Positions 11,655-13,320 of a stretch of 64,000 nucleotides of DNA are shown here, piece after piece; position 1 is the first letter of the stretch; every line of letters starts with the position of its first letter. A model generated the notes under the pieces. That model did not search any database. It saw nothing but the letters and a program-made list of their open reading frames with translations, and was not told where the DNA came from. The stretch lies in contig NZ_LT900021.1 in assembly GCF_900198835.1 (NCBI RefSeq), positions 806,001 through 870,000 of the forward strand. Direction: 5' to 3'. The translations under genes and the position numbers were made by a program. Origin of the DNA: Thermococcus henrietii (GTDB lineage: Archaea > Methanobacteriota_B > Thermococci > Thermococcales > Thermococcaceae).

Positions 11655-12164
11655 TCAAACCCAGCAGAGTTCGTAGTAGGCGCATTTGCGGCATTTCTTC
11701 GATTTGACCGGCTCCGGCGGGGCCGGGAGGGACTTGACCCGCTCGACCTCTTTTATCGCCGTCTCGATTTCACCCTCCCTGCCGTCAAGCACTATTTCTT
11801 TCGTCTCGTTGAGCTTCGGGTAGTGGAGGACGGCCTTCGCCTTTACCCCGAGCTTTTTGAGGTAATAGAGGTAGTAGAGAGCCTGCATCTCGTGGGCCTT
11901 CTCCATGCTTTTGCCGAGTTTGACTTCATGGACCTCAATGGTATCGCCCCGGCGAATGAAGTCAATCTTTATGCTCCCGACGAGGACTTCTTTCTCCTCG
12001 CTGGCATAGCGTTGTTCATGGAGAAACCGGCCCAAATCGACCCATTCGTTCTCCTGTTCCATCGTGATTCCTTTTGCAAAGTACCACAACTTCGTCGGGC
12101 AGATGAAGAGGTAGTTGATTTCGGTGCCGGTGATGAGGAGGTCGGTGAGGGGATACTCACTCAT
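11655..12164 (-). CDS. cas4: CRISPR-associated exonuclease Cas4
   Basis: A 169-residue canonical Cas4. Cys22 (FICPTKLW) plus Cys158, Cys161 and Cys167 ([12 protein letters not shown]) form the Fe-S site. His49, Asp68 and the Glu80-x-Lys82 pair ([10 protein letters not shown]) form the nuclease centre. Cas4 trims prespacers and helps select PAM-adjacent DNA. Its ATG at 12164 lies upstream of the end of the AAA ATPase gene, overlapping it by 8 bp. Its ribosome site GGAGGT is inside the ATPase reading frame, so the two genes are translationally linked. Confidence 0.94.
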
Positions 12165-13263
12165 GCCCGAACCTCCAGAGCAACCAGTGCCGCAGAAACG
12201 GGTCGGCTATTTCGTATTCCCCACCCGCCCTGTAGATTAACTCCTTTTCACGAAGGGCCCTTATGGAGTACTGAACCTGGGATGTTGTCTTAAAACCATA
12301 CTTGATGAGGAACTCGGAGGAGTACAGTTCCTTTTCTCCCCTGGCTATGGCAAGTAGAACCTTCTTCTGTGAAATCGGCAGGGAGTCCCAGATTTCGATG
12401 TAAGAATCCTCACTCTCAGCAATAACCCGTTTGAAAGTTTCTTCCATATCTTCAGGGGTTATCCTTCCTTTCAGTTTGCCGACAAACCAGAGCTCGTGGC
12501 AGAACTTCTGGGTATAATAAGGATGGCATCCCGTCAGGTTCAGGATTCCCTCGACTATCTCAGGATCTATCCCGACTCCCGTGGAGTGAAACTTCTCGGA
12601 GATAAAAACTTTAAACTCCTCCCTGGGTATCTTCTTCAGAACCATATGCCTTCCAAAGTTGTAGAAGGGACTCTGGGCCGAGCGGAATATCTTCTCCATC
12701 ATCCCCCTTTTGCTCCCGATGAAAACGTAAGAGACCTTCTCATGCCATTGGAACTCCGAGCGCATCTTCTTCAAAATGTCCTCCCCGAGCTCGGCTATCT
12801 CCTGAAACTCGTCGAAGACCACTACCACCTTTTTTTGGGTATGTTCGGCCAGCCTTTGAGGCAGTTTAAGGGATTCCTCTAAAGCCTTTTCTTCCTCTCC
12901 AATTGAGAACTCGACTTCAAGCTTTTCCCCCACCCTTATTCTCGGAGTTATCCCCCTAAAGAGCTTTTTAACCATTTCAAACAAATTTTTGGTTTTCCAG
13001 TGCTGGAGTGCCTGCGATGCAATTTTCTCGGCCAGTTCCCTCTTGGTGAGAACTCCATAGCAGTCCACCCAGAGTGGAACCACCTGTCCCTTGAGTTCCA
13101 GAAGAGCCGCGTAAACCAGCGAACTCTTACCAAACCGTCTGGGGGAGTATATTATGACGTTCTGGCCGCTCAGCATTTCCACTTTTAGCTCCTCGAGCTC
13201 CTTTTTTCTGTCTGCGAAGTTCTCCTTTGCCACGGGTTCACCATATACAAAGGGGTTCTCCAT
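12157..13263 (-). CDS. Archaeal-type AAA ATPase (ATPase_2 family) embedded in the cas operon
   Basis: The 368-residue protein has a P-loop [12 protein letters not shown] near residue 40, a Walker [11 protein letters not shown], and a sensor region [16 protein letters not shown]-terminal winged-helix domain ([20 protein letters not shown], then [15 protein letters not shown]) follows. This layout is the archaeal ATPase_2/STAND-like family, common in Thermococcales and often near mobile or defence genes; its function is unknown. It is not a standard cas gene. It has its own TATA box flanked by direct repeats and GGTGA seven bases before its ATG. It also overlaps cas4 by 8 bp. It may be a captured passenger, an accessory of the CRISPR system, or its regulator. 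Confidence 0.88.
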
Positions 13264-13289
13264 TACAGCTTCACCTGTAACAAGTTAAT

Positions 13290-13320
13290 TTGTAGTGATT
13301 TTTATAGTTTTTGTTGTAGT
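13290..13320 (-). promoter_or_regulatory. Internal promoter with flanking direct repeats, upstream of the AAA ATPase
   Basis: On the minus strand CTATAAAAA (13307-13299) is a strong TATA box about 40 bp before the ATPase ATG. Two copies of ACTACAA, at 13320-13314 and 13296-13290, start 24 bp apart and bracket the TATA box. A repressor bound there would block TBP/TFB. The upstream copy abuts the cas3 stop codon at 13321-13323. Confidence 0.55.

Follow-up and report, generated by a model that had tools for sequence, protein, structure and literature searches.

The AAA+ ATPase encoded between cas3 and cas4 in the type I-B CRISPR-Cas locus of Thermococcus henrietii is best read, with a probability of roughly 0.58, as an ATP-binding, Orc1/Cdc6-like DNA-binding regulator that would act on its own promoter and reach cas4-cas1 through read-through transcription, and that would head the adaptation module as an optional gene. 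Comparison of loci and homologues showed a fixed place ahead of cas4-cas1, a promoter of its own, and symmetric sites over that promoter that diverge together with the protein. Given this array of its own symmetric sites, the ATPase probably switches both itself and the memory-making genes on and off. The gene is real and conserved, and more interesting than first described; its DNA binding and its control of cas4-cas1 remain putative.

The window (the whole 64,000-nt stretch analyzed, positions 806,001 to 870,000 of contig NZ_LT900021.1) carries a type I-B operon on the minus strand (cas6-cas8b1-cas7-cas5-cas3-ATPase-cas4-cas1-PDDEXK); cas2 is read from the plus strand. The features used below are as follows.

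13321..15507, minus strand: cas3, the last effector gene and upstream neighbor of the ATPase gene.
13263..13319, minus strand: 57-bp dyad array (putative operator) of three 18-bp dyads.
13319-13302, minus strand: dyad 1, CTACAACAAAAACTATAA.
13298..13312, minus strand: BRE/TATA element, within the first dyad.
13295-13278, minus strand: dyad 2, CTACAAATTAACTTGTTA.
13280-13263, minus strand: dyad 3, TTACAGGTGAAGCTGTAA, overlapping the ATPase ATG.
13271..13275, minus strand: GGTGA, the ATPase ribosome site, within the last dyad.
12157..13263, minus strand: AAA+ ATPase gene (ATPase_2, PF01637, plus C-terminal winged helix), 368 aa, ATG start.
12171..12176, minus strand: GGAGGT, the cas4 ribosome site, within the ATPase coding sequence.
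11655..12164, minus strand: cas4, overlapping the ATPase gene by 8 bp (12157-12164), presumed co-transcribed target.
10665..11645, minus strand: cas1 (type I-B Cas1b), adaptation module.
9965..10654, minus strand: PD-(D/E)XK nuclease gene, following cas1 in a subset of loci.
9715..9972, plus strand: cas2 (PF09827, E 8.5e-25), facing the cas1 side.
8090..9204, strand not given: CRISPR array, 17 repeats.

An initial annotation of this DNA had placed a 368-aa ATPase_2 protein with a winged helix between cas3 and cas4, and this was confirmed. The span that it gave (12157-13320) was correct at the 12157 end; the minus-strand ORF begins with an ATG at 13263, and the claimed 13320 end takes in the promoter gap. 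Pfam ATPase_2 was matched over residues 16-251 (E 6.5e-13, 49.4 bits against a gathering score of 33.2), with further matches to AAA_14, nSTAND1 (just below the cut-off) and AAA_16. Walker A lies at residues 40-48 and Walker B (FDEFQE) at 150-155, and both are intact, as G45, K46, S48, D151 and E152 were invariant across 27 sequences. The AlphaFold2 model (mean pLDDT 90.9) placed a C-terminal winged helix in helices 316-322 and 327-339 and strands 343-346 and 349-352, with a recognition helix at approximately residues 327-339 bearing a conserved S-x-V-Q. Nine close pairs of relatives gave dN/dS values of 0.07-0.12, indicating purifying selection.

No NCBIfam family was matched, PADLOC returned only a weak partial match to PDC-S01 (3e-5 over 61 residues), and no curated cas model in either collection recognized the protein. 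A nuclease domain was not found in the window ATPase, and a CARF domain was not matched in Pfam, NCBIfam or PADLOC, the N-terminus being the AAA+ domain. Membership of the STAND NTPases (Avs-like defense), which carry large C-terminal sensor repeats plus an effector domain, was considered and rejected, since the protein has only 368 aa and its AlphaFold2 model is filled by the ATPase and winged helix. The Orc1/Cdc6 replication-initiator family was also rejected by sequence, there being no Orc/Cdc6 among the Pfam matches.

The best PDB matches were the ATPase_2 structures 2FNA (SSO1545) and 2QEN (PAB2304), which share the fold along the entire protein and likewise combine AAA+ and winged helix domains (Foldseek E 2e-13 and 2e-15; profile E 2e-19 and 4e-12; TM 0.69-0.72); they differ from the window protein in sequence (only 17-20% identity) and were solved without a stated function. 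DNA-bound archaeal Orc1/Cdc6 came next. The ATPase resembles these initiators in its AAA+ and winged helix domains and in this structural match, and differs from them in its Pfam family, in having its sites on its own promoter, and in being an optional gene.

The gap between cas3 and the ATPase gene contains dyads of the pattern TTAYA-N8-TRTAA, which together cover the TATA box, the expected transcription start, the GGTGA ribosome site and the first base of the ATG. The initial annotation does not mention these dyads, though it had correctly reported a TATA box of the gene's own, the 8-bp overlap with cas4, and a GGAGGT site inside the ATPase gene. The TATA box is AAAAACTATAAAAAT at 13312..13298 and recurs in cas-linked copies, with conservation judged by eye; GGAGGT lies at 12176..12171. 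Across the 2.16-Mb genome the pattern occurred at one place, the ATPase promoter, against four for a control pattern; other genomic targets of the dyad reader were accordingly set aside. Further targets across the family were also sought with TTACA-N8-TGTAA and rejected: many matches lay at the ATPase gene or cas4, and the remainder resembled background, as control counts were similar. The main text of the T. kodakarensis transcriptome paper names no transcription start for the ATPase gene.

Among 94 Thermococcaceae genomes (72 with cas1), 28 encoded an ATPase homologue at E < 1e-20. The initial annotation had proposed looking for the same gene at this place in other loci, and there it was found in a subset, namely 17 intact cas-linked Thermococcaceae loci with constant slot and orientation; cas4 was directly downstream in 16 and cas3 directly upstream in 15. 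In all 16 of the former, cas4 starts at -11 to +3 relative to the ATPase stop. One further genome (L029/L071) carries a decayed copy between cas3 and a cas4 fragment. Such dyads were present in 17/17 cas-linked loci, mostly as 2-5 sites over 57 or 96 bp. Where I-B loci lack the ATPase, cas3 and cas4 are mostly contiguous, as a rule overlapping by 4 bp.

The effector upstream of the ATPase varies. Most loci have the I-B effector with Cas8b1, two (L061, L069) have an I-B effector with different Cas8b and Cas3, one (L053) has a type IV-C effector (Cas10-like, Cas11, Csf2, Csf3), and one (L051) has no effector gene seen nearby. Because the ATPase is kept with cas4-cas1 through these changes, it is, judging from gene order, an optional gene of the CRISPR adaptation module. 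The suggestion of a regulator separating interference from adaptation genes therefore holds in part: the boundary position, recurrence and operator-like promoter agree with it, and the gene is tied to the adaptation side.

Several observations were made alongside. At L053:11465-15487 the type IV-C effector lies directly upstream, a type IV effector with an attached adaptation module, and the module at L051:9165-14858 comprises ATPase, cas4, a metallo-beta-lactamase-fold (MBL) gene, cas1, PD-(D/E)XK and two cas2-like genes. The MBL-fold gene (266-269 aa, PF00753, with a weak PADLOC RTasMBL match) separates cas4 from cas1 in several loci, which makes it another optional member of the adaptation module; it was scanned at L057:11396-12202 and L129:8838-9638, and called by size and place in L050, L051, L062, L130, L132 and L139. 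At L055:8350-8978, in a T. kodakarensis-like locus, cas4 and cas1 are separated by a MazE-like/PIN toxin-antitoxin pair. Cas6 of the window I-B operon (18682-19491) scored best against the PADLOC type IV Cas6 model (420 bits), which agrees with I-B/IV-C effector exchange here. Another locus of the window genome (L145:5232-8797) contains a third cas1-like gene, preceded by two genes (435 and 370 aa) without a Pfam match.

A tree was built from Cas4 and Cas1 of 52 sampled loci. ATPase presence required 15 changes, against 14.5 for shuffled labels; this scatter implies that the gene comes and goes in one slot. About two thirds of the sampled loci are without it, so adaptation does not need the ATPase. 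The nearest Cas4+Cas1 relatives (L121, L110, which is 95% identical, and L143) have neither ATPase nor array and show the 4-bp cas3/cas4 overlap, whereas L057, with a Cas4 92% identical to that of the window, has an ATPase of the other clade, only 54% identical. A single origin for the two cas-linked ATPase clades was neither shown nor rejected (p-AU 0.107). The ATPase gene has a G+C content of 48.6%, below all of its neighbors (53.5-58.6%), and a GC3 of 0.615 against 0.70-0.79. The view that the gene is not a fresh insertion is therefore unsupported for this strain, given the empty nearest relatives, the other-clade ATPase in L057, the low G+C and the scatter on the tree.

At L120, a type I-A locus (Cas8a) without the ATPase, a 25-nt stretch just before cas4 matches the 3' end of the window gene exactly (E 6e-10) and a dyad array is retained; by its sequence this looks like a deletion scar. 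Searches of other empty junctions with tblastn found no credible ATPase remnants. Dyad arrays were retained, before cas4 or in an extended cas4 start, in about eighteen (at least ten) ATPase-free loci, and these call for either recent loss or another binder. The arrays range from near perfect (L108, L140, L142) to worn (L113, L125), and gene loss followed by decay would explain this range, the alternative being another binder. Near the cas3/cas4 junction of L108, L135, L140 and L142, the array is translated as a Cas4 N-terminal extension, e.g., NYTPNCNTTNCSRNYTENCN.

Homologues outside cas loci have unrelated neighbors and no consistent partner gene, so control of neighboring genes is not the general job of the family. 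Viral carriage of the ATPase was considered and rejected, as only two distant contigs were recovered at 32% identity. These surroundings bear on an alternative in which the ATPase is a stand-alone defense or selfish gene, an autoregulated one-gene unit of use in its own right, captured ahead of cas4 in Thermococcales with little effect on CRISPR. The homologues retain the operator despite their unrelated neighbors, and some occur on bacterial plasmids; in the Thermococcaceae the presence of the gene is scattered, its G+C is unlike that of the operon, and the same module holds other passengers (the MazE-PIN pair and the MBL-fold gene). A captured unit would sit poorly with the constant slot and orientation in 17 loci, retention with cas4-cas1 through effector changes, and the tight coupling to cas4, and we regard this alternative as unlikely.

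A somewhat less probable alternative is that the ATPase works directly in spacer acquisition as an ATP-dependent partner that binds DNA, delivering or protecting prespacers for Cas4-Cas1-Cas2, while the dyads regulate only its own dose. Its strict association with the adaptation module and its Orc1/Cdc6- and RuvB-like fold are consistent with such a role. Most adaptation modules do without the ATPase, however, the protein has no evident additional domain through which it could touch Cas proteins, and no matching dyads were found in the CRISPR leader (9205-9714), which speaks weakly against docking there.

Evidence that the ATPase itself reads the dyads was drawn from its homologues. TTAC-N10-GTAA occurred within 80 bp upstream of 30/48 homologues, against 6/1027 control genes from the same loci (4/876 and 2/151), a contrast of approximately a hundredfold. 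By group, the motif preceded 10/17 cas-linked, 4/6 other archaeal and 16/25 remaining (mostly bacterial) homologues; the corresponding Fisher p-values of 2e-16, 4e-8 and 1e-14 are rough, because related sequences were treated as independent and the homologue window was slightly longer than that of the controls (80 bp vs 65 bp). Homologues outside cas loci, those of Acidobacteria included, have the same dyad arrangement with altered half-sites. Half-sites vary by lineage (TTACAG, TTACAC, TTACTT, TTACG), but an 18-bp dyad that ends close to the ATG persists throughout: Pyrococcus has TTACTT/AAGTAA, Acidobacteria have TTACG/CGTAA with dyads 21 bp apart, and an Archaeoglobaceae genome has TTACA/TTACAC.

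Among homologues with S-x-V/I-Q in the recognition helix, about 38/42 have dyads, compared with 0/4 of those without VQ/IQ (p 4e-4), the latter (L039, L041, L046, L202) being only four sequences that are also the most diverged. Of the evidence at hand, this co-divergence of dyads and recognition helix is the strongest indication that the ATPase itself reads the sites. A 26-bp palindrome was also observed just upstream of the start of an ATPase_2 paralogue at L074:9234-9259 (TTACAGTTTTATGCATAAAACTGTAA), L076:9365-9390 and L075:about 8951-8976; the paralogue is 29% identical and about 495 aa. A palindrome before a separate paralogue suggests that autoregulation may be common in the family.

That the dyads are instead read by another regulator common to these archaea, with the ATPase merely one controlled gene, would account for good dyads before or inside cas4 in empty loci (e.g., L108, L140, L142), but it is the least probable of the alternatives, since the dyads track the ATPase family into Acidobacteria and the Archaeoglobaceae genome and change with it, are worn in some empty loci (L113, L125) as expected after loss, and do not occur in the nearest empty relatives.

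Under the preferred reading of an autoregulatory ATPase, the winged helix would bind the dyads cooperatively, and bound protein covering the TATA box, start site and ribosome site would repress the promoter, a step suggested by site position only. An ATP- or DNA-dependent change in the ATPase may then release the promoter. With cas4 overlapping the ATPase gene or starting directly after it, and cas1 next in line, release would raise Cas4 and Cas1 separately from the effector genes, and spacer acquisition would be permitted. The choice of repression over activation is a weaker part of this model, since activation from such positions is also known: Csa3a of Sulfolobus is an activator of type I-A adaptation genes with palindromic sites over the cas1 BRE, TATA box and start codon (PMC4333418). 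The ATPase resembles Csa3a as a putative DNA-binding regulator beside adaptation genes with palindromic sites over the promoter. Csa3, however, is a CARF-winged helix activator, whereas the window protein is an AAA+ ATPase without a CARF match and the first gene of the operon that it would control.

A more extended proposal, which we advance only tentatively, is that CRISPR memory has a dedicated, ATP-switched gatekeeper. An Orc1/Cdc6-like protein would sense ATP or invading DNA and shut the adaptation promoter by means of cooperative dyads; it would have been joined to, and lost from, adaptation modules that serve I-B and IV-C effectors, with a scar in a type I-A locus, and would belong to a wider unrecognized family of AAA+ autoregulators in archaea and Acidobacteria.

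Locus L055, which on gene order we take to be that of T. kodakarensis, reads ATPase, cas4, MazE-like, PIN, cas1. This order fits TK0459, TK0458 (= cas4) and TK0457 (AbrB/MazE), so TK0459 is very probably the orthologue of the window ATPase. TK0459 was tabulated as a 'regulatory ATPase of AAA family fused to RecB-family nuclease', loosely CRISPR-associated (Makarova et al. 2006, Table 3, PMC1462988), and TK0458 as a 20-kDa 'predicted exonuclease' (PMC4473059). The statement that the ATPase is not a known cas gene thus agrees with current models and has to be qualified by this 2006 entry, where the gene was one genome's loose satellite, a RecB fusion acting on RNA, and where neither conservation across loci nor the operator was noted. 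The mycobacterial transcriptional regulator IniR (818 aa) has an AAA+ domain likened to SSO1545 and a MalT-like sensor domain (PMC5760070); both proteins are AAA+, and the ATPase has no sensor domain. A term search of the 2025 CRISPR classification (PMC12669027) located no passage on such a gene, and the open-access literature searched gave no link between 2FNA/2QEN-type proteins and dyads upstream of their genes. Within that literature, the adaptation-module link and the operator appear to be new.

Little is known of the regulation that keeps spacer acquisition off in hyperthermophilic archaea, the well studied case being Csa3 in Sulfolobus. The ATPase is a candidate for such a regulator, its operator is a defined 57-bp element, and it can be studied in T. 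kodakarensis, a model open to genetics. The pattern of sites and homologues also points to self-controlled DNA binding as the function of a large archaeal and bacterial ATPase family that has structures but no assigned role.
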